From positions 448,581 through 512,580 of the forward strand of contig NZ_QTUV01000001.1 of NCBI RefSeq assembly GCF_003435815.1: a DNA stretch of 64,000 nt, given 5' to 3'. The position numbers and the translations under genes are program-made. This document shows, piece after piece, positions 17,599-64,000 of the stretch. Below the pieces are notes generated by a model that did no database searches, had not been told where the DNA came from, and saw only the letters and a program-made list of their open reading frames with translations. Source of the DNA: Dorea sp. AM10-31. GTDB lineage: Bacteria > Bacillota > Clostridia > Lachnospirales > Lachnospiraceae. Position 1 is the first letter of the stretch; every line of letters starts with the position of its first letter.

Positions 17599-17599
17599 C

Positions 17600-17959: not shown

Positions 17960-17962
17960 ATG

Positions 17963-28183: not shown

Positions 28184-28210
28184 GAGCCGCCCAATCGGAC
28201 GGCTCTTTTT
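28184..28210. terminator. shared terminator, copy 1 (CTTCGAGCCGCCCA)
   Basis: GAGCCG...CGGCTC followed by TTTTT, between convergent genes. The same block, including the flank CTTCGAGCCGCCCA, is found again at 33270 and 43242. Confidence 0.8.
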
Positions 28211-28613
28211 ATGCCCGAAAACGGTAGCCTACACCACGTATCGTTTCTATGTAGTGCGGTTCTTCCGGATTTTCTTCTATTTTCTTTCTCAGATTCTTGA
28301 CTAACCCATAGACACGGTTATCCACTTCTGACTCCACATCCTCATAAATATGCTGGTAAATCTGTTCTTTTGTAAATACCCGATTGGGGGATAAGGCCAG
28401 ATAAAAAAGCAGGTCATATTCATGTCTGGTAAGTTCCACAACCTTACCATCTTTGATTACGCTCCGCTGAAGCTGGTCTATTTCCAAACCTTGGAATGTC
28501 AACTTTTCAGAATTTGTAATCTCCATAACTTCTAACGTACTTTCGCAGGCTAGAACTGATTTAATTTTATTCAGGATTCCCTCTTCGGAATCAGAAATGG
28601 TAAGAATCATCAC
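28209..28613 (-). CDS. orphan OmpR-type winged-helix protein, copy A
   Basis: 134 residues. The C-terminal 100 residues are an OmpR/PhoB winged helix (LTRHEYDLLFYLALSPNRVF, then TKEQIYQHIYE, ending IRGVGYRFRA). In place of a receiver domain there are only about 35 residues (ILTISDSEEGILNKIKSVLA), so there is no phosphorylation site. A copy about 75% identical by eye ends the next module (33297-33698). It is the last gene of a two-component/ABC module and may set its basal expression. Confidence 0.8.
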   Translation of the reverse strand: MMILTISDSEEGILNKIKSVLACESTLEVMEITNSEKLTFQGLEIDQLQRSVIKDGKVVELTRHEYDLLFYLALSPNRVFTKEQIYQHIYEDVESEVDNRVYGLVKNLRKKIEENPEEPHYIETIRGVGYRFRA

Positions 28614-33269: not shown

Positions 33270-33299
33270 GAGCCGCCCATTGCCGGACGGCTCCTTTTA
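33270..33299. terminator. shared terminator, copy 2
   Basis: GAGCCGCCCATTGCCGGACGGCTC followed by CTTTT on the + strand; the same block as copies 1 and 3. It separates the two ABC modules. Confidence 0.8.
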
Positions 33300-33698
33300 T
33301 GCCCGAAAGCGATAACCAACACCACGTATCGTTTCTATGTAGTGCGGTGTTTCCGGATTTTCTTCTATTTTCTTTCTCAAGTTCTTAATCAGACCGTAAA
33401 TTCGGTTATTCACTTCTGACTCCGCTTCCTCATAGATATGCTGATAGATCTGTTCTTTCGTGAATACCCGATTAGGAGATAACGCAAGATATAGAAGCAG
33501 ATCATATTCATGTCGGGTAAGCCCCACTGTCTTATCTTCTCTGATTACACAACGCTGAAGCTGGTCTATTTCCAGACTTGGGAATCTCAACTTTTGAATG
33601 TTTACATTATCCATAAACTCTACTGTGTTTTCACAGACTAGAACCGATTTAATCTTATTCAGAATTTCTTCCTCGGAATCAGAAAACGTAAGAATCAT
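33297..33698 (-). CDS. orphan OmpR-type winged-helix protein, copy B
   Basis: 133 residues, closely similar to copy A (28209-28613): shared TRHEYDLL, YLALSPNRVFTKEQIYQHIY and ETIRGVGYRFRA. It also lacks a receiver domain. The N-terminal 35 residues are more diverged than the winged helix. It stands at the end of the sigma-factor-led ABC module. Because both copies overlap a shared terminator, gene and terminator seem to have been duplicated as one unit. Confidence 0.8.
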   Translation of the reverse strand: MILTFSDSEEEILNKIKSVLVCENTVEFMDNVNIQKLRFPSLEIDQLQRCVIREDKTVGLTRHEYDLLLYLALSPNRVFTKEQIYQHIYEEAESEVNNRIYGLIKNLRKKIEENPETPHYIETIRGVGYRFRA

Positions 33699-45878: not shown

Positions 45879-46637
45879 TCAGCACCAGTTTGTAATTATT
45901 TCATTATAAAATTGTTCCTTATCTCCGGTTCTCTTCAGGTCTTCCTTTACTTTTCCATCTTTTAAGAAAATAATTCTATCACATGAACTTGCTATAATAG
46001 GATCATGTGTTACAAGCAGGATTGTTTTCCCCATCTTCTTATTAATCTCTTCTAAAGTATGTATTACAACCTCTGATGAGGCAGAGTCCAGATTTCCTGT
46101 TGGTTCGTCCGCCAAAATCAAATCGGGATTGTAGATTAATGCGCGGCAAATCGCAGTTCTTTGTTTTTCTCCTCCTGATAATTCATATGGTTTTTTATCC
46201 AATAAATCCGTAATTGCAAACTTCTCAGCCATTTCCTCACATTTTTTCTTACTCTCCTGAACATCTGCCTCATCCAAAATAAGCGGAAGCATAATATTTT
46301 CTTTTATAGACAGACTATCCATAAGATAATAATCCTGAAATACAAAAGCAATCTCTGTTCTTCTAAGTCTTGCCAGTTCAGCCCGGTATATATCTTTTGT
46401 ATCTTTATCTTTGTAATATATTGTTCCGTCATCTGGTTTGTCTAGCATTCCCACTGCCTTTAATAATGTAGTTTTTCCACAACCAGAACGTCCCATAATC
46501 CCTACAAATTCACCTTCTTCTATCTCAAATGAAACATTATTTAAAACAGGATAAGTAATGCTTTCTCCTGTTCGGGAAGTTGAGTAATATGCCTTTTTTA
46601 AATTTTCCACTTTTAAAATTTTTTTACTTTTTTCCAT
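45879..46637 (-). CDS. BceA-type ABC ATPase (copy 1)
   Basis: 252 residues. Walker A MGRSGCGKTTLLK, signature LSGGEKQRTAICRAL, Walker B LILADEPTGNLDSAS and H-loop THDP are complete. The GNLDSxS form is typical of the MacB/BceA class that works with FtsX-like permeases. It overlaps the permease gene by 14 bases. Likely frees the membrane from lantibiotics or bacitracin-like peptides; the nearby lantibiotic remnants support this. Confidence 0.9.
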   Translation of the reverse strand: MEKSKKILKVENLKKAYYSTSRTGESITYPVLNNVSFEIEEGEFVGIMGRSGCGKTTLLKAVGMLDKPDDGTIYYKDKDTKDIYRAELARLRRTEIAFVFQDYYLMDSLSIKENIMLPLILDEADVQESKKKCEEMAEKFAITDLLDKKPYELSGGEKQRTAICRALIYNPDLILADEPTGNLDSASSEVVIHTLEEINKKMGKTILLVTHDPIIASSCDRIIFLKDGKVKEDLKRTGDKEQFYNEIITNWC

Positions 46638-48588
46638 CTCTACTATCTCCCTCTATTTTTCTAATATTTCTATAAGCAAATATCAAACTAAAAACAGCAA
46701 AAAGCAACCATATAGCACCTACAATTAAGATTATTCCTTTAAAATATTTATGGATCCACTCAATCTGTAAATGTTTCGCATACAAAAGCATGCTACAATA
46801 CAAAATTGAAATAATTGTACCGCATATAACAGGCAGTCCTCCTGATAGCAGACACTCTTTTATGATTCCCTTTCTGACTTTAGCAGAAGACATTCCTGAT
46901 TGAATATAAAATCGGTATTTCCATTCTGTCTCTGGAAAATCACACTCCATTTTTATACTCAATACAAATATTCCACACAAAAGCATAATGATAATATTTC
47001 CCGCTGCTGAAGCCACATATAAAAGCTTTGTTTTACTTCTTTCTAACAGCAGCTCTTTCTTCTCGTAAATCAGATTCCCATTATCAACATCAAAATAATT
47101 TACCTGGGAATGATCTTTGGCATACGCTTTTATTTCTTCGACGACTTTATCATAATTTTCAGGTATGTTCATCATAACAGCCATATTCGCCCCATCTGCT
47201 TTCACACAGTTCTTTTGATAATATTCGTCTGAGAATACAATAATATGTTCACATGTTTCACTTCCAAACACACCTGTTAGAATTCTATCTTCTGTTCCGA
47301 CAACCTTGAATTTTTCCGTAAAATACTGTACTTTAGGTACTGCTACCTCTTTTATATACAACCATAAATCAGCTCTTGCTTTTCCTATATAAATTAATGG
47401 ATTTTTTGTATTGTAACCAATTCCGACTTTGTTTCGTTCAAACCTCTCCCTTTGATATACAACGAATATTTCATTTCCTTTCAAATCCAGTGATTTTCCG
47501 GTCCATTTTTCATAAGTTGATGCCGGAATCCCCATATGTTCAGCAATATCTGTTGTTGTTACTCTAGCACATGGTACTTTTCTCAGTTCAACCCCTTCAT
47601 CATCTGTTAGATGATTCAAAAACTCTTCATCATCTTTATTTGCCATCCATACCAAGTCATACGGATAATTCTTCGGCTCGGTAATCGGAAGGTTATCCAA
47701 TAATTTTATAGAAAAATCTGTCATAATAATTACAAGAAATGCTGCAACGACAAAAGACATATTTATATTATAAAAGAATCTATGATACCAGTTTTCCAAC
47801 CATGTAATTCGTTTATAATACTTCTTCTCCTTTTTATTCAACCGAACAAAATAGTATCCTGCCAAGCTGATCATAAGCAGGCACATGCCCGCATTCAAAA
47901 ATACAGTCGGAATACTTTTGGATATCTTTCCCCAATAAAACAATAAACTTATAAGACCAATCAAGGTCAAAAATATCCCAAGCAGTAAAATTTTCGGTCT
48001 CTTCTTCAGTGGTTTCCCGTTCTTTTTTCCAACAGTCAACAATGCATCCATTCCCAGGCATGCTATCAATTCATCAAAAACAATGAATAGGATGCCGAAA
48101 ACTTCACATGAAATCACCAATGTATTCCGCAGTGCAATAAATCCATAATTAACCTCTGTAGTAATTGTATTATAAAAGATATTTTGTAATACTGTTTTTG
48201 CACACTCTGCTAATATTTTTCCTAAAATCAAGCCACCAGTTACCGAGGAAAATATAATCCCTGCATATTCAAATCCAATAAACATATATCTATGCTTTTT
48301 CTTTAATCCCATCGTATCAAGCAGAACATAATCATAGGATTTTTTTTGTATGTACGAAATAATAACCAGTACCATTAATATAAACAAGAGAATATATGTC
48401 TCTTGAAAATTAATAAAAGTGTACATTTCTTCCACTATGCCAGAATTTTGTCCATTTATAATTCTTTCAATACTGTCACTAAATGCATATGATACATATA
48501 TTGTCGAAACCATTAGTATACCACATAATATAACCAGTAAATAATGACCAAGCTTATGCTTTAGTGTTTCAAAAAATATTTTTTTCAT
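46624..48588 (-). CDS. BceB-type FtsX permease (copy 1)
   Basis: 654 residues. About ten membrane helices with a large outer domain of about 200 residues between helices 7 and 8 (from NLPITEPKNYPYDLVWMANK) is the BceB layout. It shares length and many motifs (NYPYDMVWMA in the second copy) with 53711-55675, so the two are paralogs. It has AT-rich codon use. Paired with the ATPase just downstream. Confidence 0.9.
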   Translation of the reverse strand: MKKIFFETLKHKLGHYLLVILCGILMVSTIYVSYAFSDSIERIINGQNSGIVEEMYTFINFQETYILLFILMVLVIISYIQKKSYDYVLLDTMGLKKKHRYMFIGFEYAGIIFSSVTGGLILGKILAECAKTVLQNIFYNTITTEVNYGFIALRNTLVISCEVFGILFIVFDELIACLGMDALLTVGKKNGKPLKKRPKILLLGIFLTLIGLISLLFYWGKISKSIPTVFLNAGMCLLMISLAGYYFVRLNKKEKKYYKRITWLENWYHRFFYNINMSFVVAAFLVIIMTDFSIKLLDNLPITEPKNYPYDLVWMANKDDEEFLNHLTDDEGVELRKVPCARVTTTDIAEHMGIPASTYEKWTGKSLDLKGNEIFVVYQRERFERNKVGIGYNTKNPLIYIGKARADLWLYIKEVAVPKVQYFTEKFKVVGTEDRILTGVFGSETCEHIIVFSDEYYQKNCVKADGANMAVMMNIPENYDKVVEEIKAYAKDHSQVNYFDVDNGNLIYEKKELLLERSKTKLLYVASAAGNIIIMLLCGIFVLSIKMECDFPETEWKYRFYIQSGMSSAKVRKGIIKECLLSGGLPVICGTIISILYCSMLLYAKHLQIEWIHKYFKGIILIVGAIWLLFAVFSLIFAYRNIRKIEGDSRDGKK

Positions 48589-51335: not shown

Positions 51336-51381
51336 CAGGAGAGTACACTGCCATAAGCATGTGTATCTCTCCTGCTTTTTT
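51336..51381 (+). terminator. terminator between iterons and parR-like gene
   Basis: CAGGAGAGTACAC and GTGTATCTCTCCTG pair almost fully and are followed by CTTTTTTA on the + strand. Confidence 0.7.
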
Positions 51382-51751
51382 ATGCCCTGCGAAATGCACT
51401 GATAGCATCCACTACATTCTGTCTCATAGTCTGATCCATCCGCAGCGGTTCTTCTTCCATCAAATCAACTTCTGTGGGCATTTCTCTATTTATCTTAGAA
51501 ACGTCCTGCCCTTCCAATACCTTTCTTACTTCTTCCCGGATGATTTGCTGCATCATTGGCCGGAGCATATCCGGTTCCATGCTTATACTGCCATTACCTG
51601 TCTCATCCGTTCTTCCCGTATATGCCAGAATTGCTGCAACGATCAGTTTTGCTTTTTTCTCTGTCGTATTCAGAAGTTCTGTCACATACACATGATCTGG
51701 GTCCGACTTATCAAAACCAATAGTGAATACAAACGGATTTTTCTTTCCCAT
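51380..51751 (-). CDS. ParR-like partner of the actin-like protein
   Basis: 123 residues. The N-terminus (FVFTIGFDKSDPDHVYVTEL, then LNTTEKKAKLIVAAILAYTG) is like a ribbon-helix-helix dimerisation region; the C-terminus is acidic and helical. It directly follows the ParM-like gene (four-base gap), the normal place for parR. GGAGTGTG precedes the ATG. Probably binds the iterons at 51272 and links them to the filament. Confidence 0.7.
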   Translation of the reverse strand: MGKKNPFVFTIGFDKSDPDHVYVTELLNTTEKKAKLIVAAILAYTGRTDETGNGSISMEPDMLRPMMQQIIREEVRKVLEGQDVSKINREMPTEVDLMEEEPLRMDQTMRQNVVDAISAFRRA

Positions 51752-51755
51752 AAAA

Positions 51756-52694
51756 TCACACTCCAGCCTGTGTCATGCGATACAAAAGATCATATCCATC
51801 GGCATTTGCTTTCATATCCCGGATAAAGGTATGTTTTCCCAACCGGTCTGCCTGCTCCAGAAATCGTTCCAGAAGCACTGCTCCGCCGCCGATAAACACC
51901 GTATAAGTAGATTTTGTATCAATGCCCCGCTCTCGGATGCTGTTCAGAAGATCGGTAACAAAATTCTGAACCATGGTTTCTACTGCCTGTACAACAGCTT
52001 CCTCATAATACTGCGTTTTTCCCTTGATGATACTGTCGATATCTGCCTCCTCCAGAAGCATGTCATATTCACTGTTAATACTGGAAATGATATCGTTATA
52101 CATGGTAATCACACCTTTTTCCAGAGAATCACAATAATCCATATCCGGTCTGCCACTTCTCATCAGAAGATAATCAGAAGTAAATCCGCCAATATCAATC
52201 CCTACGACTTTCGGAATCTCACGGATTTCCGTCATCCTCGTCATCATGGCTGCATAATCCTGCGGAAACGCCATTACATTCTGAATACAGAGGTGATAGC
52301 CTTTATCGTTGAAGCATAGTTCTTGCACCTTCCCGTCCCCTTTGAAATAGCGTTCATATCTCTCACAAAGCTCTGCAAAATGCTTCGGCGGAAGCCCAAT
52401 CGGAAGTTCCACCTGAATGACATCCTCCGGCTGGATCTGCGCTTTCTGTTCCAGCTCCATCGCAATGGCAAATAACGTCAGAATCCAGAACCGGTTCCGG
52501 CTGTCCTGCGTCTTATCCCTCTGGTAAGGAATCCGTTTCTCACTGAGGGTATAATACTTGCCCTGATATTTCAGATACTTCTCACCCCTGGCAGGCTTTT
52601 TGTCCTGTTCTGTCAGTCCAGTGGTAAATACAAAATTACAGGTTTTCATGTTCCGGTTTCCGTGATCCACGGCTACTCTTATTTTTTTTATCAT
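51756..52694 (-). CDS. parM: ParM/StbA-like actin ATPase
   Basis: 312 residues. Phosphate-1 loop AVDHGNRNMKT, phosphate-2 loop VVGIDIGGFTSDYLL and adenosine motif FIGGGAVLLE are complete, so an actin fold that can bind ATP is expected. Members form filaments that push plasmid copies apart. Found on this element, it suggests that it exists at least partly as a plasmid or replicating circle. Confidence 0.88.
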   Translation of the reverse strand: MIKKIRVAVDHGNRNMKTCNFVFTTGLTEQDKKPARGEKYLKYQGKYYTLSEKRIPYQRDKTQDSRNRFWILTLFAIAMELEQKAQIQPEDVIQVELPIGLPPKHFAELCERYERYFKGDGKVQELCFNDKGYHLCIQNVMAFPQDYAAMMTRMTEIREIPKVVGIDIGGFTSDYLLMRSGRPDMDYCDSLEKGVITMYNDIISSINSEYDMLLEEADIDSIIKGKTQYYEEAVVQAVETMVQNFVTDLLNSIRERGIDTKSTYTVFIGGGAVLLERFLEQADRLGKHTFIRDMKANADGYDLLYRMTQAGV

Positions 52695-52722: not shown

Positions 52723-52956
52723 TTATTCTGTACGTAGGAGATACTTAAAGTGCAACTTTTTAAGGACTATTTCCATAATTTTTCTTCCTGTATACTTCCA
52801 TATCGTTGATATCATTGGTAAAACACAGTATAATGAACATATTATCAAATAAGAATTTGAATTACAGGAAATTGCCCCTATAGCTATAACACAAACTAAT
52901 AGCACTAAATATCCAATCCTTTTTTTCAAAACATTCTTATAATATTTACTATTCAT
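52723..52956 (-). CDS. small membrane protein of the BceAB operon
   Basis: 77 residues with two hydrophobic helices (about residues 12-30 and 33-48) and a basic C-terminus. It starts immediately after the ATPase stop, with GGCGGAATTATAG before the ATG, so it is the third gene of this operon. Not recognised. Confidence 0.6.
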   Translation of the reverse strand: MNSKYYKNVLKKRIGYLVLLVCVIAIGAISCNSNSYLIICSLYCVLPMISTIWKYTGRKIMEIVLKKLHFKYLLRTE

Positions 52957-53709
52957 CTATAATTCCGCCATCCGTCCAATAATCTCCTGATAAAATGCTT
53001 CCTGGCTTTCTCCACGCTTCAAAGTATCCAGAATCAGCCCGTCTTTTAGCAAGATGATTCTGCTGCAGTAGCTTGCCATCTGCGGATCGTGGGTAACCAT
53101 AACAATGGTTTTCTTAAATTCACGGTTAATCTGTGTCAGCGCATCAATCACGATCTTACCCGACTTGGAATCCAGATTACCCGTCGGCTCATCCGCAAGC
53201 ACCAGATCCGGATCGTTAATGAGCGCCCTGCAGATTGCCACACGCTGTTTCTCACCGCCGGATAATTCATAAGGATTCTTTTTCACCAAATGGGAAATCA
53301 GAAATTTTTCTGCGTACTCCTGTGCCGCCTTTGTCATGACACTTTCCTTCTCCCTGCCAAGGATCATCGGAAGCATAATATTTTCCTCAACGGACAAACT
53401 GTCCATCAGATAAAAATCCTGAAATATAAAGCCGATCTGCTTTCTTCGTACATCCGCCAGCCGGTCTCCGTAGATTTCGCTGACATCTTCTTCCATAAAC
53501 CGTACCGTCCCGCCGGTCTGCTTGTCGATCATTCCGAGGACCTTTAGCAGTGTTGTCTTTCCGCAGCCAGATTTTCCCATGATTCCGACAAATTCGCCCT
53601 CTTCTACTGCAAAGTTTAATCCTTTTAACACTTTCACGTCTTCTTCACTCTTCTTGAGCGATGACCTCCGGTAATTCCGGATCAGATTTTCCACTTCCAA
53701 TACTTTCAT
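52957..53709 (-). CDS. BceA-type ABC ATPase (copy 2)
   Basis: About 250 residues. MGKSGCGKTTLLKVLG, LSGGEKQRVAICRAL, LVLADEPTGNLDSKS and THDP are intact. Clearly paralogous to 45879-46637. I chose the ATG just after the permease stop behind GGGGAATGATTAG. Part of a LytTR-controlled operon (site at 55843). Confidence 0.9.
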   Translation of the reverse strand: MKVLEVENLIRNYRRSSLKKSEEDVKVLKGLNFAVEEGEFVGIMGKSGCGKTTLLKVLGMIDKQTGGTVRFMEEDVSEIYGDRLADVRRKQIGFIFQDFYLMDSLSVEENIMLPMILGREKESVMTKAAQEYAEKFLISHLVKKNPYELSGGEKQRVAICRALINDPDLVLADEPTGNLDSKSGKIVIDALTQINREFKKTIVMVTHDPQMASYCSRIILLKDGLILDTLKRGESQEAFYQEIIGRMAEL

Positions 53710-53710
53710 T

Positions 53711-55675
53711 CTAATCATTCCCCTTCTCTACTCTCTTTATAACATATTGTGCAAACAGCCATTGTACTAGCCGGTCTGCCAACAGATATATTCCAACAAT
53801 CAGAATCCAGTACATCCAAAATGTTACGTCCAGACTTCCGGCATCTTTTGATGCACACCGCCATTCATAAGAGAGCACATATACAATACCCATCATTACC
53901 GTGGCAAACAAAGCAATATCCGACAACATCTGGGTTTCAAAGCGAATGGTTTTCCTGCGCTGCTTCTGCTTCATGCCCATACATCGCAGGAACTCATAGC
54001 GTCTCTCATATCCCGAAAGTTCCGACAATATCTTAATCCCATTCACAAAGAATGCACTGATAAATAGCGCCATCATCAGGAATAATTTACTGGATAAGCT
54101 GAACAACACACGCATTTTCTGCCCGATCAGATACTCCTCCGTCCCGTAGAGATAACTCTCCATCCTCGTATCGCTGTCATTCTTTACGCCACATTCTTTC
54201 TGATACTCCGACAGTTCCTTCCATGCATTTTCCTTACGTTTTCCCGAAAATGTAAATAATCTTAATACCGTTGCCTCCTGATCATCTCCACGCATCGCTT
54301 CCCACTGCTTCTGAAAATATGTATCCGAAAACACGATAATGTTCTCATGCCACTGATCTGTAGAATACTGTCCGATCACATTCTGGGTAAATATGTCCTT
54401 GATATCGTACAGGTACTGCGGATCTGTGTGTGAAATCTCCGCCATATCTTCTTGATACTTTCCTGTGAATAAGAAACTATACGTATTCAAATAATCCTCA
54501 TCTGTAATCTTTTTTTCTTTCTGATACTCAGAATCCTCAATGCCCACCAGAATTTCACGCTCCGACAGATTCACATCTTTCCCGGTCAGCTTCTCATATT
54601 CTGAAGCTGAAACTCCTATATGCTGTGCTCCATAATATGTCGTCACCCGGATCATCGGAAGCTCTGTCATATTTCCATCATACTTTCTGACCAGTTTTTC
54701 CGCAAATGCTTCATCTTCCTCCTTTGCCATCCACACCATGTCATAGGGATAGTTTTCCCGATACTTATCCAATGGAAGAACCTCTGCAATTTCAACCGTC
54801 AGATATGTAAGCGCAAAGAAATGAATGACCAGCAGAATCAGCAGAATCAACAGATTATTCATGTATTTACTGTACAATTGATTCATCTGTAAAATATGCC
54901 GATGATAAAACTGTTTTCGATGCTTCAGCCCTTCCAGAATCAATGCCACGCCAAATGCAGCCACCAGAAAAAGCCCTACAATAAAGATAACGTGGGAATA
55001 CATATATGACAGGTCACTTCCCTGATACTGGTTTTCTCCTAACACCAGAACGCCAATCCCGATCAATACCATTAGTATCCATTTCTTTCCGACCGGACGC
55101 TTCTCGTTATACTCACTCTTTGAAATGAGTGTACTTAGATTCCTTCCATCCATCCAGACCAATAAGATCAGGAATACACCTGTCATGTTTGCAACACTCA
55201 TCCCGCAGGTATTCCGGTAAATCTTCCATCCCGGTGCTGTCACCTTAAGAAATTCCGGATACAGTTTATGAAGTGCGGTCTGTGCTCCATATAAGATTCC
55301 GTTTCCCATTAAAATTCCGAACACAAGAGAAAATACACATCCCACCGTATACTCTACTAACAGGAGCAGATACGATGTTTTCTTTTTCATCCCAAGAACA
55401 ATAAACGTTGTGTAATCTTTAATACGAAGCTTCATATAGTATTTCATAGAAAAAATCATCAAGAAGACCGTAATAAATGTAATAAGCCCTGCCGCAAGCA
55501 CGAAATCTGACTTAAGCGTTGCTGCAGTCACTCCATCTTTTACAGCCTTCTTGACCACATCATTCAATCCCCAGAATGCAAAAAGCTCTGCAATCGCAAG
55601 AATATTGCTCACGAAAAAAAGTATGTAATTCTTTAGATTGCTTTTAAAATTCTTCATGATTATGTGATAAAACAT
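53711..55675 (-). CDS. BceB-type FtsX permease (copy 2)
   Basis: 654 residues, exactly the length of copy 1. About ten helices and a large outer domain beginning near KYRENYPYDMVWMAKEEDEA. Less AT-rich than copy 1, so the two may have different origins. A perfect 10-bp hairpin and a putative LytTR site lie upstream. Expected to remove or sense peptide antibiotics. Confidence 0.9.
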   Translation of the reverse strand: MFYHIIMKNFKSNLKNYILFFVSNILAIAELFAFWGLNDVVKKAVKDGVTAATLKSDFVLAAGLITFITVFLMIFSMKYYMKLRIKDYTTFIVLGMKKKTSYLLLLVEYTVGCVFSLVFGILMGNGILYGAQTALHKLYPEFLKVTAPGWKIYRNTCGMSVANMTGVFLILLVWMDGRNLSTLISKSEYNEKRPVGKKWILMVLIGIGVLVLGENQYQGSDLSYMYSHVIFIVGLFLVAAFGVALILEGLKHRKQFYHRHILQMNQLYSKYMNNLLILLILLVIHFFALTYLTVEIAEVLPLDKYRENYPYDMVWMAKEEDEAFAEKLVRKYDGNMTELPMIRVTTYYGAQHIGVSASEYEKLTGKDVNLSEREILVGIEDSEYQKEKKITDEDYLNTYSFLFTGKYQEDMAEISHTDPQYLYDIKDIFTQNVIGQYSTDQWHENIIVFSDTYFQKQWEAMRGDDQEATVLRLFTFSGKRKENAWKELSEYQKECGVKNDSDTRMESYLYGTEEYLIGQKMRVLFSLSSKLFLMMALFISAFFVNGIKILSELSGYERRYEFLRCMGMKQKQRRKTIRFETQMLSDIALFATVMMGIVYVLSYEWRCASKDAGSLDVTFWMYWILIVGIYLLADRLVQWLFAQYVIKRVEKGND

Positions 55676-55710
55676 ATTAAATCCCTACCTAATAATATAT
55701 ATTACACAAT

Positions 55711-55739
55711 AAGATTGCCGCGTAAAACTCGGCAATCTT
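55711..55739. terminator. leader hairpin
   Basis: AAGATTGCCG and CGGCAATCTT form a perfect 10-bp stem in the leader of the - strand BceAB operon, 36 bases before its start. It is not followed by a long T-run, so a regulatory hairpin is as likely as a terminator. Confidence 0.5.
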
Positions 55740-55842
55740 ATAAATTGCGTTCATATCCAGCATACTTAATATTGTTGTAATAATTGTTTTACTCCGCATT
55801 TTCTAATTATTATATTATTTCAGCTTTATTTTTCAATACATT

Positions 55843-55872
55843 GGCCATAACAGTGCGATTTTAGGCCATCAC
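55843..55872 (-). promoter_or_regulatory. LytTR-type regulator binding site 1
   Basis: GGCCATAAC (55843) and GGCCATCAC (55864) are half-sites exactly 21 bases apart, read on the - strand as GTTATGGCC. Two direct half-sites at 21 bp fit LytTR response-regulator sites. The site lies about 170 bases before the BceAB start. Confidence 0.65.
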
Positions 55873-56134
55873 TTTCTTAAACATCAGATATCACACGTCA
55901 AATTTGTTTTTTCATCTCTGATATTGTTATACTTAAGCTTAAATTCGTCATCTTGATCCAGCAATTTTTCTAAAATCCGCACATATCTTCTACATATTGC
56001 AGATACCGAATGCCCAGCCTTTTTCAAATAGTATTAGTATACATATACTACATTCACTTCTTTCTCAACAGTATTTTTTTTGACTTTTTTATTCGTATGT
56101 TTCACACTTTCTATTAGCAACTAGAATAATCGTT

Positions 56135-56818
56135 TTATTTTAAGATTTCCTTCCCTTTTTCAATGATTCGACCATCCTCCACACGGACCACTCTCGTACC
56201 ATATTTCGCCAATGAAGTATCATGTGTTACCATAACAATTGTCATTCCTTGCTTATTTAAGCGTTCAAAAAGATTCATTATGGTTTGAGAATTTTCTTTA
56301 TCAAGATTTCCTGTTGGCTCATCTGCAAGCAATATCTGTGGTTTATTGATTATTGCTCTCATAATTGCTATACGCTGCTGTTCTCCTCCCGACATTTGAG
56401 AGACATGTTTTTTTTCCAAATCATCTATACCAAATTCCGTAAGCAACTCATAAGCTATTTTTTCTCTTTCTTTTTTCCGCATTCCGGCATAGCCTAACGG
56501 AACAACCAGATTTTCTAACGCATTTAATTCCGGTATAAGATGGTATGCCTGAAATACAAATCCAATTTTTTGATTTCTGATAAATGCACTTTCCTTTTTT
56601 GATAACTTTCGAATATCTACTCCGTCTAACTTATAAGTTCCTATCGTTGCATCGTCCAATAACCCTAAAATATTCAACAATGTAGATTTCCCACTTCCGG
56701 ATTCCCCAAAGATACAAACAAATTCTCCTTTAGAAATTGACAAATCAACCCCCTTTAATACTTTAGTCTTAATTTCTTTTCCACAATAGGTTTTTTCTAT
56801 TCCCTTTAACATAATCAT
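56135..56818 (-). CDS. MacB/LolD-type ABC ATPase
   Basis: 227 residues. Walker A FGESGSGKSTLLNILG, signature MSGGEQQRIAIMRA, Walker B ILLADEPTGNLDKEN and H-loop THDTSL. The ATG chosen has GGTGGTG 6-7 bases before it. It energises the two FtsX-like proteins encoded upstream. Confidence 0.9.
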   Translation of the reverse strand: MIMLKGIEKTYCGKEIKTKVLKGVDLSISKGEFVCIFGESGSGKSTLLNILGLLDDATIGTYKLDGVDIRKLSKKESAFIRNQKIGFVFQAYHLIPELNALENLVVPLGYAGMRKKEREKIAYELLTEFGIDDLEKKHVSQMSGGEQQRIAIMRAIINKPQILLADEPTGNLDKENSQTIMNLFERLNKQGMTIVMVTHDTSLAKYGTRVVRVEDGRIIEKGKEILK

Positions 56819-56830
56819 GTAATTCACCAC

Positions 56831-57955
56831 CTAATAGACATTCAGCAATTCAATAATTTTTTTCTTTTTTAGTTTTCTAAAAGTAATTACCGAAACAAAG
56901 CTACTTAGTACTACACACAGCCCATATGCACTCAGAAATGTGTACCAGCTCCCTTGCACATTCACTACACTGATCATAATTCCAAAATCCACATAATAAG
57001 TAACCAAATAACCAATGACTATTCCTATGATCGTTCCTATGCTGTTTAATAATAAAATCTCACAAAATATTTCCCAGTAGAGTTCCTTGTATTGTGCACC
57101 ATATGCCAGACTAATTCCATATGATTCTTCTCTATGCTCGAATCGAAGTTGATAAATAGCAATCATACCAGTCAAAAAAACCGCCATAAAAAGTAATGCT
57201 ACCTTATTTATTGCCTGTAAGGATGTCATCACTTTTATTGTATTATTCCTTAATTCTATTTCTGGAGAGTAGATACGATAACGAAAACTTTGGTCATGTG
57301 AATTATATAAATATGTCTCTATTTTCTGTATTGTTTTTTCCTCATTTTTTAAATACTTCTTTTTCCATTCCACATGGATAGCTGCCGATGATATTTCCTC
57401 TTTATACTGCTCCATATATGTAATTGGTGCTACCACACACTTTTTTAACTTAATTTCATCTGTTTCCGTCTTCCAGTTTAATTCTGCTATTTTGGTGGGC
57501 ATCTGCTTTTTTTCAAGCTGCGGGATGGGATTCATTTCACAATTCATAATATCCTGAAGACCATTTCCCCAATATGTATAGCCATTTTTCAAATCAAGCT
57601 TTTTATAATCCACTAAAATCATAACGAATTCATAGTTTTCATTTTTATAAGAATAGAACTGTGGCAATACAACATATAAAAAAGTCTGACCATCTGTTAT
57701 CTCGTCCACTTTTTCATAATCCTTCAGTGTAAAGGCTTGCTTTTCTATATCATTCATACCTTCACCACCTGAAATTTCCAAAACTAAATCCCTCTCTTGA
57801 TTTTTTTGATTTTCTTTTTCACGCGACAATGAGAAAAACATATTTAAAGAATATGTAAACACACTCATCCCAAGTGCAATTTCAATAATCATAAGAATTG
57901 AAACCCATCTATTATGTCGCAATATTTGAAACATTTTTGCAATAGTATATTTCAT
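56831..57955 (-). CDS. FtsX-like ABC permease 1
   Basis: 374 residues. One N-terminal helix (WVSILMIIEIALGMSVFTYS), an outer domain of about 230 residues and three C-terminal helices: the MacB/FtsX layout. It ends 12 bases before the ATPase start. Works as a pair with 57955-59067. Confidence 0.85.
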   Translation of the reverse strand: MKYTIAKMFQILRHNRWVSILMIIEIALGMSVFTYSLNMFFSLSREKENQKNQERDLVLEISGGEGMNDIEKQAFTLKDYEKVDEITDGQTFLYVVLPQFYSYKNENYEFVMILVDYKKLDLKNGYTYWGNGLQDIMNCEMNPIPQLEKKQMPTKIAELNWKTETDEIKLKKCVVAPITYMEQYKEEISSAAIHVEWKKKYLKNEEKTIQKIETYLYNSHDQSFRYRIYSPEIELRNNTIKVMTSLQAINKVALLFMAVFLTGMIAIYQLRFEHREESYGISLAYGAQYKELYWEIFCEILLLNSIGTIIGIVIGYLVTYYVDFGIMISVVNVQGSWYTFLSAYGLCVVLSSFVSVITFRKLKKKKIIELLNVY

Positions 57956-59067
57956 TATATATCCCTCGTTGTCCTCACCATATCTGCAATGTTTTCTTTT
58001 TTAATTCTGCTAACTATTATCCATGTTAATATTTCACAAGCCCAAACTGCTAATATAACTGTTTCCACTATAACCATACTGTCCAAAATAATAATATGCT
58101 CCAAAGATGCTAATTTAGCTAATGGTCTTAGTGTAATCATAACTAAAAATACTGCCAATAAAGTCACCAACAATGTTTCAAAAAACAAACAATATTTAAT
58201 ATCTCTTTCTGTAGCACCAAGTGCCAAATTGATTCCCATGATTTTCCGTTCTTTTTTTGCCTTTGCCATTAGCACAATGGTTTCGTTAATCATGAAAAAT
58301 AATATTGCTACCAGAGCACACATTCCCCTAACAATTCGCCACTGAATCTTTGTGTACAGTGCATTTTTATATAATTCTTCTCCTTCTGTAACTCCTAATA
58401 TATCTGCATGATTATCTTTTTCTTTTATTTGTTCAATAACCTCGTCAATTCTTTTTTGTTTTTGCAATTCATTTTCGCAAAAAAATGTCCCTGAAAACTG
58501 TATATCCTTTTCCTCCTTATATACATTAAGCATTGTCTGATAAGGTATAATCATCCCCGAATAAACCGAATTATCTATTAATCCGATAACTTTTAATCTT
58601 TTATCTCTGATTTGAATCATATCTCCAATTTCACACGCATGCATACGCGCATATTGTTTATTCATCAGACATACATCTTTCCCTTCTTGTAGTTCTTTTT
58701 TACTAAATGTTCTTCCTTCAATTTTTGGAAGTGGATAAAAATAAGATTCATCAATTCCCTTTATTGAAACATATTGGTTCTCCCATTCTGGGAAAGATTC
58801 TTCATAAAATGCACTTATAGAATAAGAAATCTCTTTATCTAATTTAATAGTATTAAAGGTTCTGCTAAGCCAGTCTACTTGAAAAGAATCTTCCATACCT
58901 TTAAAAGTAGTATAATAAATAACTTGTTCAACCGACCTTGTATTTGCAATGCAGCATGTAGGCAATAATAGCCCTACATAAAAAGACAAAACATATAAAA
59001 AATATCTTCTCTTTTCATATTTAATTTTAAGAAATAGTTGATAAAACAAATAATTGACTCTATCCAT
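57955..59067 (-). CDS. FtsX-like ABC permease 2
   Basis: About 370 residues with the same layout: an N-terminal helix (YFLYVLSFYVGLLLPTCCIA), an outer MacB-like core domain (KVIGLIDNSVYSGMIIPYQT is typical) and three C-terminal helices. ATG chosen behind AAAGGGTGAG; adjacent to the lipoprotein stop and sharing one base with permease 1's start. Confidence 0.85.
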   Translation of the reverse strand: MDRVNYLFYQLFLKIKYEKRRYFLYVLSFYVGLLLPTCCIANTRSVEQVIYYTTFKGMEDSFQVDWLSRTFNTIKLDKEISYSISAFYEESFPEWENQYVSIKGIDESYFYPLPKIEGRTFSKKELQEGKDVCLMNKQYARMHACEIGDMIQIRDKRLKVIGLIDNSVYSGMIIPYQTMLNVYKEEKDIQFSGTFFCENELQKQKRIDEVIEQIKEKDNHADILGVTEGEELYKNALYTKIQWRIVRGMCALVAILFFMINETIVLMAKAKKERKIMGINLALGATERDIKYCLFFETLLVTLLAVFLVMITLRPLAKLASLEHIIILDSMVIVETVILAVWACEILTWIIVSRIKKENIADMVRTTRDI

Positions 59068-59069
59068 TA

Positions 59070-60092
59070 TCAATTCTCACCCTTAAAGCATTTGAAAATC
59101 TTCCTTGCATTTGGCATTACAATAAAATATTCTTCCTTTTCATTTATAGATATTTGGGGTATTTCTTCATCCTCTAATCCATCAATATATGTTATTGTTT
59201 CCTCATATTTACCATTCTCACTCAAACGATAAACAGCTGCTCCAGCACATGAAACGCAAATAATACCTCTATCTGTTAAGAGAAAACTAGATATATTAAG
59301 TCCATCTGGTAATTCACATAATTTTTTTAATTTATTATCTTTAATAGTCATAAGCCATTCCGGGCAAGATGTTAAAGCTCCAAAACTATCATTCGCTTCA
59401 TCATAATATCTAACCATAGAATTGATTAAATAAATCTGATTATTACATGAATAAATAGAACCTATAAAATTGCTTCCTATCTCTTTCAACTTTCCATCTG
59501 TATACTTGTCAACTACTGGATTTTCTAAAGAAACACCGGTAACATATATACTCTCTTGATTTACAGAAAGCACTTCTGGTATATAATTAGGATCTGTTGA
59601 TTGTGTATTTTTTAATTTTATTTCTTCAATATAATCAAGTTCTTTATCCAATACTTGTATTCGATTATTTCCTTGATCCAGCACATAAATTTTTTCGTTG
59701 CACATAGTGATTGCACTTGGAGATATAAATTCACCTTCACCACTTCCAGTTCCACCAACTTCTTTAAGTATATTACCCGCATAGTCTACTTCAAAAATGC
59801 AATCTGTTTTTTTATCCGAAATAAGCACTGCTTCATCATTACAGAAAATACCTCCCGGCTCTCCAATTTTCTCTATTTTCCATTCTTCTAATATATAATC
59901 AGATTTATAAACATCTTGCAAAGTTTCCAGTGCACACTTTTCGCCTTGCACTTCAGCATCTTTTTTTTCATAAATTGGTAACACCTGCTGTTTGGATTCT
60001 TTCATCAACTCATAATTATCGCTTTTTTGACAGCCTATCAAGCACGCAACTATCCCTAGCACAACACATCCACAAATAATTCTTTTTCCCAT
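59070..60092 (-). CDS. beta-propeller lipoprotein (NHL-like)
   Basis: About 340 residues. A lipoprotein signal with lipobox CLIGC at about residue 20 anchors it outside. Repeats such as NILKEVGGTGSGEGEFISPS, then AITMCNEKIYVLDQGNNRIQ fit a six-bladed NHL/6-blade propeller. AAAGGAG lies before the chosen ATG. First gene of the operon whose other genes encode an ABC/FtsX machine. It may capture a peptide or lipid for the transporter; that is inference. Confidence 0.85.
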   Translation of the reverse strand: MGKRIICGCVVLGIVACLIGCQKSDNYELMKESKQQVLPIYEKKDAEVQGEKCALETLQDVYKSDYILEEWKIEKIGEPGGIFCNDEAVLISDKKTDCIFEVDYAGNILKEVGGTGSGEGEFISPSAITMCNEKIYVLDQGNNRIQVLDKELDYIEEIKLKNTQSTDPNYIPEVLSVNQESIYVTGVSLENPVVDKYTDGKLKEIGSNFIGSIYSCNNQIYLINSMVRYYDEANDSFGALTSCPEWLMTIKDNKLKKLCELPDGLNISSFLLTDRGIICVSCAGAAVYRLSENGKYEETITYIDGLEDEEIPQISINEKEEYFIVMPNARKIFKCFKGEN

Positions 60093-60119
60093 ATTACAAC
60101 TCTCCTTTTTGGGAAACAC

Positions 60120-60506
60120 TTCACTATATTTCTCAATTAATAATTACTAATTTTTTCATTCACAACACTTATCTTAAATCTTACAAACAGCTACAGCTGA
60201 CGTATCCATTCTGTTTGCTTTATAAAGGCTATTTCCCCTCCTCGCAATGTCTTTTCTAACATTTTTTGTATTTTTTCATCATATCGTTTTATTTTGTACT
60301 TTTCAATTGTTAGGCCATAACAGTGTGTTTTTTGACCATAACTTTTTCAGATTTAGTAAACAGCAGTCCTAATTCACTGTTTTATAAATAAATTTTCAGA
60401 TCTTTACCAAATAGACATTTTTTAACAAAATAGTGCAGCATTAAAACAAGATTATATATTCCGATTAGCATACATAATATTTACTCTCCTTTGGAAATGT
60501 TGATAT
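60120..60506. other. regulatory region of the lipoprotein-FtsX operon
   Basis: AT-rich, with the second LytTR-type site at 60313. A - strand frame of 23 codons (60191-60262) has no good start context and is not called. Confidence 0.5.
60313..60342 (-). promoter_or_regulatory. LytTR-type regulator binding site 2
   Basis: GGCCATAAC (60313) and GACCATAAC (60334), again exactly 21 bases apart and in the same orientation and sequence context (AACAGTG follows in both) as site 1. About 220 bases before the lipoprotein start. Confidence 0.65.
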
Positions 60507-60552
60507 AAAAAAACAGATGTGCTAATCTAAACTATCACATCTGTTTTTTTAC
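60507..60552 (-). terminator. terminator of the LytTR/kinase operon
   Basis: AAAAAAACAGATGTG and CACATCTGTTTTTTT are perfect 15-base arms. T-runs on both strands allow bidirectional action. Confidence 0.88.
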
Positions 60553-60622
60553 ATGTTAACAACAATAAAGTGTCAGAAAATGTGTACATCCAATCGTATG
60601 TGTACCACCCATCATCTCTTGG

Positions 60623-60715
60623 CTACTGCTTTCTCGCAGCAATTTGTCCATCTCCAACATCCAACATTTCTTTGCACAAATCTCCGCCACAATTCATTTC
60701 TTCTCTGTGTTCCAT
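60623..60715 (-). CDS. tiny Cys-containing peptide after the kinase gene
   Basis: 30 residues, MEHREEMNCGGDLCKEMLDV..., in a 20-base distance from the kinase stop and behind a very strong GAAAGGGGGG site, with a terminator just downstream. A second frame of the same DNA ends ...MMGGTHTIGCTHFLTLYCC, five bases before the terminator stem; it looks like a double-Gly leader and a Thr/Cys-rich core. One base difference would join the two. It could be the signal peptide of the kinase or a degraded lantibiotic gene. Confidence 0.5.
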   Translation of the reverse strand: MEHREEMNCGGDLCKEMLDVGDGQIAARKQ

Positions 60716-60735
60716 GGTATTCCCCCCTTTCTTTT

Positions 60736-62061
60736 TTATGAAACATCCTCATTACTAAAAAAAGAAACACACGTCAAAAAGCTGTTTTCTTTAATCTGAT
60801 AAGAATATGTACCATCATATCTGTCTACAATCTGCCGCACGTTTTTTAACCCATATCCATGTACCTCCTTTTCTGACTTACATGAGATAAGCCGATGATT
60901 TTTTTCTTTTGGGTGCTCTTCAATACTATTTTCTATCTCTATATATAATAAACAATACCTTCTATTAATTCTTATAGTCACCCATTTTTCTGTAGATTTT
61001 ATTCTCTCACAGGCTTCTATTGCATTATCCAGCAGATTACCCAACAGTGAAATCGTCTCCCCATCCTTAAACGGAACATCCCCAATCATGTTGCTACCAA
61101 TACTGAAAGCAATTCCTTCGGAATCTGCTTGCTTTTTCTTAGAATTTAAAATCAAATCCACTATATTATTTCCTGTCCAAATCTTTGTTGAATCATCAAG
61201 GATATCTTTGCTTATTTCTTCCAGATAATCGTGTAATTTATCCCACTGATTTGCTCTCTCCATATTTCGAAGCACTAGTAAATGATTTTTCATGTCATGA
61301 ATCATTTGTCGGCTTTTCAGCATCTCTGCATATCTTTCTTCCAATAACTGATCTCTCAATATAAGTGTCGTTTTTTCTTGTTTCACCACCTGATATTTGA
61401 TTATAAACATACCGCTTAGAACAATAAGTAAACTTATAGCTGATAGATTCATACTTGCATTGATTCCCCGAATAGGTTTACTCCCATTTGCCATTTCATC
61501 TAACCATAACTGATATTTGAAAAGTACCGCACATAGTAACGCCCCTGTTATAACTATAATTCCACAGCATTGTTCTATCATACTGCGTATGCTCTCTTCT
61601 CTTTTTTTTATATTCACAATACCTAATAGAATAATTCCTCTTGTAAAAAAATATATAAGCACTTTCTGCCACGTCAAAGCATATATATATATCACATGCT
61701 CAAATTGCTCTTTTATAAACTCCATACTTATAAATGCTAAAATAAAATCCAGAATTGCAATAAATTCAAAATAAACGAATACTATTCCTGCACTTAACAC
61801 TACTTTTTTTCTCTTTATCCCATACATACACATGATAGTTAAAATAACTACAAGCCCCAGCATTGTTCTGGAAAAAAAAGCAATTAATCTATTAATTCCC
61901 AACAAGCTTCCTACAACAAATATGTTCGCCCATCGGATAATGGTCTCCTTTTTGTCAGCGTATTTTTTATCTAATACCGTCATGTATAAAATTTCATAAC
62001 ACATCCACATTTCCCATATAGATATTGTAATCTGTATTCCTGAAAGAATGATCTGATTCAT
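60736..62061 (-). CDS. AgrC-like GHKL sensor histidine kinase
   Basis: About 440 residues. Six to seven hydrophobic helices occupy residues 1-215. The H-box IHDMKNHLLVLRNM, the N-box LGNLLDNAIEACERI and GYGLKNVRQIV follow, as in AgrC/ComD-type kinases that sense peptides. The chosen ATG overlaps the regulator's stop (ATGA) and has TTGGAG before it. Partner of the LytTR regulator encoded just upstream. Confidence 0.9.
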   Translation of the reverse strand: MNQIILSGIQITISIWEMWMCYEILYMTVLDKKYADKKETIIRWANIFVVGSLLGINRLIAFFSRTMLGLVVILTIMCMYGIKRKKVVLSAGIVFVYFEFIAILDFILAFISMEFIKEQFEHVIYIYALTWQKVLIYFFTRGIILLGIVNIKKREESIRSMIEQCCGIIVITGALLCAVLFKYQLWLDEMANGSKPIRGINASMNLSAISLLIVLSGMFIIKYQVVKQEKTTLILRDQLLEERYAEMLKSRQMIHDMKNHLLVLRNMERANQWDKLHDYLEEISKDILDDSTKIWTGNNIVDLILNSKKKQADSEGIAFSIGSNMIGDVPFKDGETISLLGNLLDNAIEACERIKSTEKWVTIRINRRYCLLYIEIENSIEEHPKEKNHRLISCKSEKEVHGYGLKNVRQIVDRYDGTYSYQIKENSFLTCVSFFSNEDVS

Positions 62062-62768
62062 CTTAATGCTCTCCAATACGCTGTTATTTTTTCTTTCACC
62101 TGTGAACTCTGTACCCGGCTAACTGTAATTTCTTCACCGTTATCCATCTGAATCACATTCCCCCGTACTCTGACAATATGATTTACGTTCACTGCATGTC
62201 CTCGATCCACTAATATAAAAGCATTACTGTGTATTTGTTCAAGAATCTGATTCATAGACAATCGTTCCATATACTTCCCATTTTCCGTAATATACTCTGC
62301 ATACTTTGAGCCTTTAATCTTTTGAATACATACAATATCTTTATGGTATATTTTAATTTTTCTCTGGTTAGTGCCAACCCACCGATATTCTTCATAGTCT
62401 TTTTTTATTTCATGAACTACTCTTTCAATCAATGGTGAAAGTCTCTCTTCTATATCCTTTTTCAAAATATACTGATATGCTTCTATGATATAACTCTCTG
62501 ACGCAAACTCAGAGTGTGATGTTAGAAAAACGAGGTACACATCCGGATTGTTCTCTTTTATTCTTTTCCCTAATTCCAGACCACTGATCCCCGGAAGTTC
62601 TATATCGGAAATAACCAAGTCATATCTTCCTCCAACAAGCAAATAGCGCTCTGCTGATTCGTATACATCAACTTCAACTCCTTCGATACTACCGATCCCT
62701 TTTTTTATATACCGAACTATTTCTTGTCTTATATTTTCTTCATCCTCAATTGTTGCTATTTTAATCAT
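62058..62768 (-). CDS. LytTR-family response regulator
   Basis: About 236 residues. The receiver has acidic residues IEDEENIR, phospho-Asp in DLVISDIELPGISG and a Lys at the usual place (LKKDI). The C-terminal LytTR domain has KGSKYAEYITENGKYMERLS, then FILVDRGHAVNVNHIVRVRG. ATG behind GAGGTG, overlapping the upstream gene's stop. Likely binds the two 21-bp-spaced sites at 55843 and 60313. Confidence 0.92.
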   Translation of the reverse strand: MIKIATIEDEENIRQEIVRYIKKGIGSIEGVEVDVYESAERYLLVGGRYDLVISDIELPGISGLELGKRIKENNPDVYLVFLTSHSEFASESYIIEAYQYILKKDIEERLSPLIERVVHEIKKDYEEYRWVGTNQRKIKIYHKDIVCIQKIKGSKYAEYITENGKYMERLSMNQILEQIHSNAFILVDRGHAVNVNHIVRVRGNVIQMDNGEEITVSRVQSSQVKEKITAYWRALR

Positions 62769-63328
62769 CTGCACACCTCATCAAATATATAATATTTGCT
62801 CTTATTCACATCTTGAAGGACAGCCTCATCCTCTGTAACACGTAAGACAAACGTTTTCTCCCATAATGCTTTATTATCCTTCTGCTCCAGCATTTTTCCA
62901 CAATGGTATATAAAACTCCCTATTTTTTTGTTTTCCACCTTATCTATAATATCAAGAATTGCTGCTTCAATCTTCATAGATTGAAAATGTGGATGCCATC
63001 TTCCCAATATTTGATTTATATTTGATTTCTTCAATGCCACTTTTTTATATGCCCATCCTTTTTTAGGAAATACAGTATTTATATCTAACTGCAAACAATT
63101 TAAAATTCTGTTAAATTCAAGTTCACCGCTTATGTATGGATATCCCAATTCCAAATAAGCGTAGATATGCCAAACAGCTTTTATTAAAAAAGATTCATCC
63201 TGCGTAATCTCATACTGGCATCTAAGCCACTCGATACTATTTAGCAGCACTTTCTTACTATTTAACCCAACATTCTCAATATTATGTACTGCAATTAAAA
63301 TCGCTTTTACTTCAACTTCATTATACAT
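62765..63328 (-). CDS. hypothetical protein, first gene of the LytTR operon
   Basis: 187 residues, helical (ILIAVHNIENVGLNSKKVLL, then NSIEWLRCQYEITQDESFLI). No membrane segment and no family recognised. Coupled to the regulator gene by ATGA. It may modulate the kinase or regulator. Confidence 0.6.
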   Translation of the reverse strand: MYNEVEVKAILIAVHNIENVGLNSKKVLLNSIEWLRCQYEITQDESFLIKAVWHIYAYLELGYPYISGELEFNRILNCLQLDINTVFPKKGWAYKKVALKKSNINQILGRWHPHFQSMKIEAAILDIIDKVENKKIGSFIYHCGKMLEQKDNKALWEKTFVLRVTEDEAVLQDVNKSKYYIFDEVCR

Positions 63329-63370
63329 TCAACTGTACCCCTTTTTCTTCTATAGTATAGTTGTTTTTAC

Positions 63371-63400
63371 TATATGTAAATATGTTGCATATATGTAAAT
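63371..63400. promoter_or_regulatory. direct repeats between divergent genes
   Basis: TATATGTAAAT occurs twice, 19 bases apart, in the divergent promoter region of the LytTR operon and the XRE gene. Candidate operator of the XRE protein. Confidence 0.5.
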
Positions 63401-63456
63401 TCATTTTTTCTATCACTATTGGTACAATATATTTATCGAAAGGAGAACGATTCATC

Positions 63457-63780
63457 ATGAAAACAGGAGAACGAATCAAAACAATACGAAAATCTCAAGG
63501 CATTACACAAGCCAAACTTGCTGAAACACTTCATATTTCTTCTAGTTTCATGAGCCGTATCGAAAATGGATCATCTAGTCTCACTTTGGACTTCGTTTGT
63601 GAGATTGCAGATGCACTTCAGGTTACACGCCAAGAAGTTCTCCGCGATGTATTTACCTATACTAAAGATGACAGCATTCTAATTTCCAAGAAAATAGAAA
63701 TCAACATCCAAAAGTTCTCTCCTGAAAAGCAAGCAGAGATTCTGGATGTATTAGAATTTCTTGCCTCGCGTCTTTCTTAA
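63457..63780 (+). CDS. XRE-family regulator
   Basis: 107 residues. MKTGERIKTIRKSQGITQAK, then LAETLHISSSFMSRIENGSS is a textbook XRE helix-turn-helix; the C-terminus is a short helical dimerisation part. GAAAGGAG precedes the chosen ATG by 9 bases. Divergent from the LytTR operon and probably its repressor or co-regulator. 63781-64000 holds no gene. Confidence 0.88.
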   Translation: MKTGERIKTIRKSQGITQAKLAETLHISSSFMSRIENGSSSLTLDFVCEIADALQVTRQEVLRDVFTYTKDDSILISKKIEINIQKFSPEKQAEILDVLEFLASRLS

Positions 63781-64000
63781 TTATAACATGCATATTATTT
63801 TTTACATCTTTTTGGACATAACTGATATGTTTTTAGGACATGAATTTTTTATTTATACATGCACTCTTCTTTCCATTCATAGAGTGCATGTATTTTTAAG
63901 TGGCTAATACTATAACCCTTTTATATATATAGACACATTAATCAACAAAAAGTGACGCGAAAAGCTAATCCTTTTATTTTAATATTCCATCCCCCATCTC

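Follow-up and report, generated by a model that had tools for sequence, protein, structure and literature searches.

What signal do the two ABC transporter operons near one end of this Dorea sp. AM10-31 sequence answer to, and through which regulator? The stretch analyzed, 64,000 nucleotides of contig NZ_QTUV01000001.1 (assembly GCF_003435815.1, positions 448,581 to 512,580; hereafter the window), carries a BceAB-type operon (BceAB2) and an operon for a propeller lipoprotein, two FtsX-type permeases and an ABC ATPase (the lipoprotein operon), both close to a LytTR response regulator (RR) and a GHKL sensor kinase (HK). Judging from sequence, we consider it quite probable that a LytTR lanthipeptide regulon has here been cut down to its sensing and immunity parts, with DNA binding, activation, ligand and immunity each predicted. 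A sequence-only reading of the window had pointed to half-site pairs at 55843/55864 and 60313/60334, 21 bp apart and in the same orientation, upstream of these operons. Both were recovered at exactly those coordinates and in that placement, each beside a promoter-like site:

55843 to 55872, minus strand: LytTR box of the BceAB2 operon, GTGATGGCC (55872-55864) N12 GTTATGGCC (55851-55843).
55809 to 55836, minus strand: promoter-like site of BceAB2, TTGAAA-16-TATAAT, with the -10 at +37 from the right half-site.
60313 to 60342, minus strand: LytTR box of the lipoprotein operon, GTTATGGTC (60342-60334) N12 GTTATGGCC (60321-60313).
60278 to 60306, minus strand: promoter-like site of the lipoprotein operon, TTGAAA-17-TATGAT, with the -10 at +38 from the right half-site.

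On the forward strand, an exact GGCCATAAC stands at 55843 and at 60313, paired with GGCCATCAC (at 55864) and GACCATAAC (at 60334) respectively, and the start-to-start distance of the half-sites is 21 bp in both pairs. Read on the operon strand, the consensus is GTKATGGYC-N12-GTTATGGCC, two direct 9-bp repeats with a 12-bp spacer adjacent to the -35 element on its upstream side. It matches the known LytTR site, which according to the excerpted text of PMC2766830 consists of a pair of 9-bp repeats separated by 12 bp. The pairs lie 5' of the minus-strand operons, with 176 nucleotides from the right half-site to the open reading frame (ORF) start for BceAB2 and 202 for the lipoprotein operon. When GTTATGGCC pairs with a spacing of 20 to 22 were ranked over both strands of the 64 kb, those at 55872 and 60342 came out best (1 mismatch in 18 each), followed by one at 63844 (4 mismatches); the remaining listed pairs had 5. 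The two upstream regions match, ungapped, at 33 of 42 positions, against a maximum of 27 of 42 in 60 paired shuffles. Of 42-mer pairs matching at 33 or more positions (10-mer seed), the window contained 16 and none of 8 shuffled windows contained any; several of the remaining 15 represent gene paralogues or a hairpin. A chance origin of the boxes was rejected because the pairs stand out, even though the single 9-mer GGCCATAAC is not enriched in the window (8 matches with at most 1 mismatch versus 11.0 expected). A strict scan for half-sites, repeat identity and a -10 together gave one extra window match, at 37777, which lies inside a coding gene and was dismissed as chance; the same scan missed the third box described below.

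Between 55600 and 64000, the BceAB2 promoter-like site has the top minus-strand score (11 of 12), and that of the lipoprotein operon is one of four minus-strand sites scoring 10 of 12. Promoter-like sites overall were not commoner there than in shuffles (42 versus 46.9). The window's first BceAB-like operon (45879-48588) has no LytTR box upstream, with no pair of up to 5 mismatches.

The proposed box binder is encoded with its kinase and a third protein:

62058 to 62774, minus strand: LytTR response regulator (PF00072 and PF04397).
60736 to 62076, minus strand: GHKL (AgrC-type) sensor kinase (PF14501, E 2.1e-22).
62765 to 63328, minus strand: X187, 187 amino acids, a partner of the LytTR/GHKL pair with no assigned function, conserved beside it.

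Both RR domains score above cut-off (receiver PF00072, E 1.1e-14; LytTR domain PF04397, E 1.8e-11), and ComE (4cbv), among 60 listed PDB matches, covers positions 6-227 of the 236 in the RR profile. A tblastn search of the window with RR matched only RR itself, bearing out the claim that the sole LytTR regulator of the window adjoins the operons. The kinase carries the HATPase_c_5 domain that marks the GHKL type. X187 matches no Pfam or NCBIfam family above cut-off, and its model is confident (predicted local distance difference test score, pLDDT, 86) yet has no PDB match at E <= 0.001. Its homologues P0121-P0192 form a conserved family adjoining lanthipeptide-linked LytTR systems, though not that of L051; in viral contigs, X187 was not found.

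Do relatives of this regulator carry the same operator? Scanning GTDB contigs turned up 7 related loci (40-43% identity), all 7 with X187 preceding RR, plus one 27% match. Close relatives, with an RR 60-97% identical, occur in metagenome contigs. Among 397 genomes of the family, RR was found at E <= 1e-40 in 8, at 9 places (one genome being that of locus L031), and 4 of these places have X187 within the fetched stretch. RR was also found in 4 of 392 genomes sampled from the order (at 1e-60) and in 13 of 58 genomes of one genus, g308 (at 1e-55). Direct half-sites of the TTnAnGGnC type precede the regulator operon, its neighbors or both in L031, L034, L035, L036 and L037 and likewise in L051, L053, L054, L057 and L082. 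The operator predicted for relatives is thus conserved in kind, with a spacing of 20 to 22 bp and not a fixed 21, and the relatives' distance from box to -10 mostly equals that of the window.

A two-block position weight matrix (PWM) trained on 8 pairs (2 from the window and 6 from relatives) gave 21 matches of at least 20 bits across the 437 kb of 26 loci, where 0.2 would be expected. Four of the 21 lie in L058, which is the same record as L031, and 17 were kept, among them L034, a locus close to L031. Matches outside the training set include L031 9896; L035 9214; L036 9214, 15168 and 16849; and L037 9893. Although the model ignored the -10, at least five of the six TATAAT positions are present at +37 or +38 in 13 of these 17 score-picked boxes. 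In a wider table of 23 boxes (3 from the window and 20 from relatives), 18 have a -10, at +37 (11 boxes) or +38 (7 boxes), against a background of 2.3% per position; those of L051, L053, L054, L057 and L082 were picked by eye in intergenic stretches, where the -10 may have swayed the choice. The table omits L034 and L058 (near or identical to L031), L036 9214 and 9898 (near boxes of L035), L082 8119, L083 10432 and L056 1386. Of these, the count of 17 does include L034 and both L036 boxes, and the other omitted boxes enter no count. The box counts also exclude L032 and L033 (contig ends) and L038 (the 27% match). The doubtful L082 pair at 8119 was removed from a model built on relatives only and was later listed by the strict scan. 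Pattern hits L001-L030, all in genome G001, were taken as chance (54 matches, forward and reverse, versus 192 for a reversed control pattern).

The nature of the peptide is suggested by what follows the kinase. In nine loci (L031, L034, L035, L036, L051, L053, L054, L057 and L082), a small ORF of about 50 amino acids lies directly after it and is followed by LanM, the class II lanthipeptide synthetase. These nine precursors read through in one frame, with a leader like YAGDLxxELxEI (AGDL-type) and a ..CC end. Blast matches to LanM occur in the nine loci, leaving out L058 as a copy of L031, and the three LanM proteins tested against NCBIfam all matched TIGR03897 (E 5e-161 to 1e-230). L031 and L034 are not independent because their LanM proteins are 97.5% identical. 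The six LanM-type ORFs examined span 927 to 1057 amino acids, and five of six LanM have both zinc motifs, WCHG and CHG (L034 has CHG only). The LanM ORF of L036 is short (695 amino acids, matching the first 659 of 932 positions), and that of L053 is interrupted, by eye, by apparent insertion-sequence genes. In the window, the same position is occupied as follows:

60623 to 60715, minus strand: leader part of a lanthipeptide-type precursor, MEHREEMNCGGDLCKE..., 30 amino acids and then a stop.
60556 to 60693, minus strand: core part of the precursor in a different frame, ...THTIGCTHFLTLYCC and a stop.
60503 to 60554, minus strand: long, terminator-like hairpin with a T-rich end, 3' of the precursor ORF (z -7.4).

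The peptide is most likely a class II lanthipeptide, a point that the sequence-only reading lacked. Its ORF lies between kinase and lipoprotein operon and breaks into two frames within the leader, at a short tandem repeat. The hairpin probably ends the regulator operon; it is not among the sites given by a separate terminator scan. The protein database holds unbroken close precursors of 50-52 amino acids (P0194-P0197) alongside many fusions of locus parts (P0198, P0201, P0200, P0008, P0027 and P0028). P0198, listed in 84 contigs of which the longest is 142 kb, joins the precursor core to the C terminus of the ABC ATPase, and others join RR to FtsX, ABC or the precursor core, which suggests frequent deletions or assembly chimeras.

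It is conceivable, if unlikely, that the organism is a working producer with LanM and an intact precursor elsewhere in its genome, the window being the regulator and immunity part of an active system. Such a division would suit the clustering of RR/HK, precursor and LanM in relatives, the two RR/HK pairs found 8-9 kb apart in both L031 and L034, and the uninterrupted precursors in the database. Against this, tblastn with the L031 LanM found no LanM in the 64-kb window, and the precursor directly after HK is frame-split and followed by a terminator-like hairpin. Production has probably been lost in this copy, and because the precursor is broken and LanM is not in the window, the lanthipeptide sensed is most likely foreign.

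Does RR itself own the boxes? A probable third box, also new relative to the sequence-only reading, lies on the X187 side of the regulator genes:

63814 to 63844, minus strand: probable third LytTR box, TTCATGTCC (63844-63836) N13 GTTATGTCC (63822-63814), with 22-bp spacing.
63780 to 63785, minus strand: TATAAT -10 element belonging to the third box (+37), at the 3' end of the helix-turn-helix (HTH) gene.
63457 to 63780, plus strand: Cro/CI-type HTH regulator (PF01381), divergent from X187.

The spacer here is 13 bp and not 12. HTH homologues occupy the same place in L053 (67% identical) and L082 (48%), and a box is found in the corresponding place in both, with TATAAT at +37 in L082. A block around CATGTCCTAAAAA and the subsequent -10 is common to 63814-63844 and L053, just past the 3' end of the HTH gene, and the HTH-X187 intergenic region is also conserved between the two (TTTACATATATGCAA..TATTTACA). 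A transcript from this box would run antisense to the HTH gene and into X187-RR-HK, and the HTH regulator and the RR operon may be mutually antagonistic. Half-sites of different LytTR regulators look alike, and this resemblance is what could let a LytTR regulator outside the window own the boxes while the adjacent RR controls something else. We find that quite unlikely, as the third box leads towards the operon of this RR and, in relatives, boxes are often found ahead of the RR or X187 of the same locus.

Next to be considered is what the boxes would control:

53711 to 55675, minus strand: BceB2, a BceB-like FtsX-type permease of 654 amino acids (PF02687).
52957 to 53718, minus strand: BceA2, ABC ATPase (PF00005).
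55709 to 55741, minus strand: strong hairpin (z -4.2) and possible attenuator within the predicted 5' leader of BceB2.
59070 to 60119, minus strand: propeller lipoprotein, a six-bladed beta-propeller (PF17170) with a lipoprotein signal by eye.
57955 to 59073, minus strand: FtsX/MacB-type permease a (PF12704, PF02687).
56831 to 57955, minus strand: FtsX-type permease b (PF02687).
56135 to 56830, minus strand: ABC ATPase of the lipoprotein operon (PF00005).

BceAB2 has the make-up of BceAB-type resistance transporters, a permease of about 650 amino acids of the FtsX type plus an ATPase, and differs from them in its LytTR box and in that no BceRS pair was seen among its scanned neighbors. BceAB-type transporters take antimicrobials off their target. 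Neither operon is of the LanFEG kind, which has ABC-2-type permeases; those here are of the FtsX/MacB type. Bacteriocin-export, darobactin-export and LolD models, all below cut-off, are among the top NCBIfam matches listed for the two ATPases, and the transporters could on that account be peptide exporters and not immunity pumps; we regard this as improbable, given that the proteins have no peptidase domain and that the BceAB type is linked to removing antimicrobials from their target. BceB2 has relatives in 5 of the 397 family genomes at E <= 1e-80, the closest in G351 (55%; others 30-39%). In an X187-RR-HK-precursor-LanM locus, the G351 homologue, which carries one internal TAG, follows LanM at a distance of about 4 kb, with BceA2 (82%) behind it. 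A hairpin of similar sequence stands upstream of the BceB2 homologue in L057 (z -8.2); an Rfam scan of 52900-64000 gave no match reaching the gathering score. Also in L057, a gene at 17303-18532, between LanM and the BceAB2 homologue, has a box upstream and a CxxxCxxC stretch, seen by eye, that we take to be radical-SAM-like; it possibly serves a second modified peptide of the same regulon.

The lipoprotein operon has relatives in 4 of the 397 genomes. Two of these (G058 and G263) have such RRs at other places, and the G318 copy has an internal TAG and other genes inserted. We rejected this operon as a constant member of the regulon because its homologues lack an upstream box; with no RR adjoining them either, the module probably came under box control in the lineage of the window. 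The earlier view of one peptide-sensing and defense system with two transporters is supported, with the qualification that one of the two also occurs without a box elsewhere. That the two upstream regions are mere duplicated promoter DNA imported with mobile modules, without LytTR control, would suit the IstB-like and resolvase domains around the locus and a lipoprotein module that occurs without the box, but is very improbable, as alignment concentrates their identity in box and promoter and boxes of the same geometry are found in relative loci whose sequence has diverged.

Several observations weigh against a sensing and immunity regulon of this kind. Twelve of the 13 LytTR/GHKL loci of g308 lack a nearby X187 or LanM, L082 alone having both, so the regulator family as a whole is not tied to lanthipeptides; strict box matches occur in 2 of these 12 (L074 and L083). 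The best score of the relatives-only half-site PWM in the window is 15.5, compared with a mean best of 16.3 in 40 random windows. This model thus fails to single out the window sites by score, and what supports them is their geometry, repeat identity and context. The third box alone scores at chance level (15.2 bits). No box stands directly upstream of the G351 BceB2 homologue, where the nearest boxes precede neighboring genes, and by the strict scan none of the 4 homologous lipoprotein operons has an upstream box, nor does any have an adjoining RR. Finally, the LanM search covered the 64-kb window, and the genome may have a LanM elsewhere.

Given these caveats, we still favor the reduced lanthipeptide regulon, which would work as follows. 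RR, switched on by the GHKL kinase, would bind as a dimer to the direct 9-bp repeats, immediately ahead of the -35, thereby activating the promoters of the lipoprotein and BceAB2 operons. It would probably also activate its own X187-RR-HK-precursor operon through the transcript antisense to the HTH gene, a positive feedback. The kinase would most likely respond to a short class II lanthipeptide like those whose genes separate kinase and LanM in the relatives, with the mature peptide, of the cell's own type or a neighbor's, as ligand. The locus would thus most likely sense lanthipeptide from other cells, whereupon the two ABC transporters would remove it.

How does this compare with known systems? 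Lacticin 481 and ruminococcin A typify one type of class II lanthipeptide cluster. The relatives share with it a leader and a core ending in CC, and a LanM with the zinc motif; they differ in a very short core, LytTR/GHKL control and X187, and the window copy is in addition broken and without LanM and has lipoprotein and FtsX-type pumps in place of LanFEG. LytTR peptide pheromone systems with GHKL kinases include sil, Blp, plantaricin and Agr. Systems of this kind have in common with the window a LytTR regulator and direct 9-bp repeats with a spacer of about 12 bp ahead of activated promoters, an arrangement given in the excerpted text of PMC2766830. The window differs from these in its lanthipeptide-type precursor and the extra conserved partner X187, and none of the 20 window proteins scanned with Pfam has the domain of AgrB, the peptidase that an Agr system has along with AgrD. 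Humphreys 2023 (PMC10301443), in the sections available, ties degenerate LanM-like proteins to agr in Clostridium. CA_C0082 of Clostridium acetobutylicum is similar to the present case as a LanM-type gene beside, and controlled by, a peptide quorum-sensing operon; its homologues have 670-728 amino acids, no zinc ligands and a place by agrBD/agrCA, whereas the six LanM-type ORFs examined here (927-1057 amino acids) have WCHG and/or CHG and follow a precursor gene. The Ubericin K cluster, in the part of PMC8515946 consulted, shares the GHKL kinase, the LytTR regulator and direct repeats before two regulated bacteriocin promoters, and differs in its 24-nucleotide spacer, repeats 35 nucleotides upstream of the -35 and lack of a lanthipeptide. 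The nisin O paper (PMC11811420), as far as its excerpt goes, concerns other two-component systems. The titles and abstract openings of the open-licence PMC literature searched gave no account of the present system.

The DNA around the locus is apparently mobile, and a plasmid collection held no near match to 55676-64000. A ParM/ALP-type actin gene and, after it, a small ORF matching no family (51380-52694) suggest plasmid or integrative and conjugative element segregation. At 12127-14046 lies a 639-amino-acid translation-factor-like GTPase that by eye resembles tetracycline ribosomal protection proteins. Two similar short ORFs (28209-28613 and 33297-33698), by eye like response-regulator output domains without a receiver, each adjoin an ABC operon, with DNA matching over most of their length.

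Sensor and immunity loci without production are what "cheater" models of bacterial warfare would predict, and such a locus would be visible here along with its regulatory wiring. We put forward, tentatively and with more doubt than confidence, that the window carries a listening-only derivative of an undescribed LytTR-autoinduced mini-lanthipeptide family (X187-LytTR-GHKL-precursor-LanM) of gut Lachnospiraceae, with an antisense promoter across its own repressor gene. If so, production would have been lost while sensing and two regulator-wired immunity pumps were retained, and the promoter through the repressor gene would make a bistable switch. Mobile DNA would then spread resistance to a neighbor's peptide, with X187 as a new signalling component. 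The antisense promoter and this partner raise concrete new questions, and the operator, proposed for a group of gut peptide systems, would show which genes answer the peptide.

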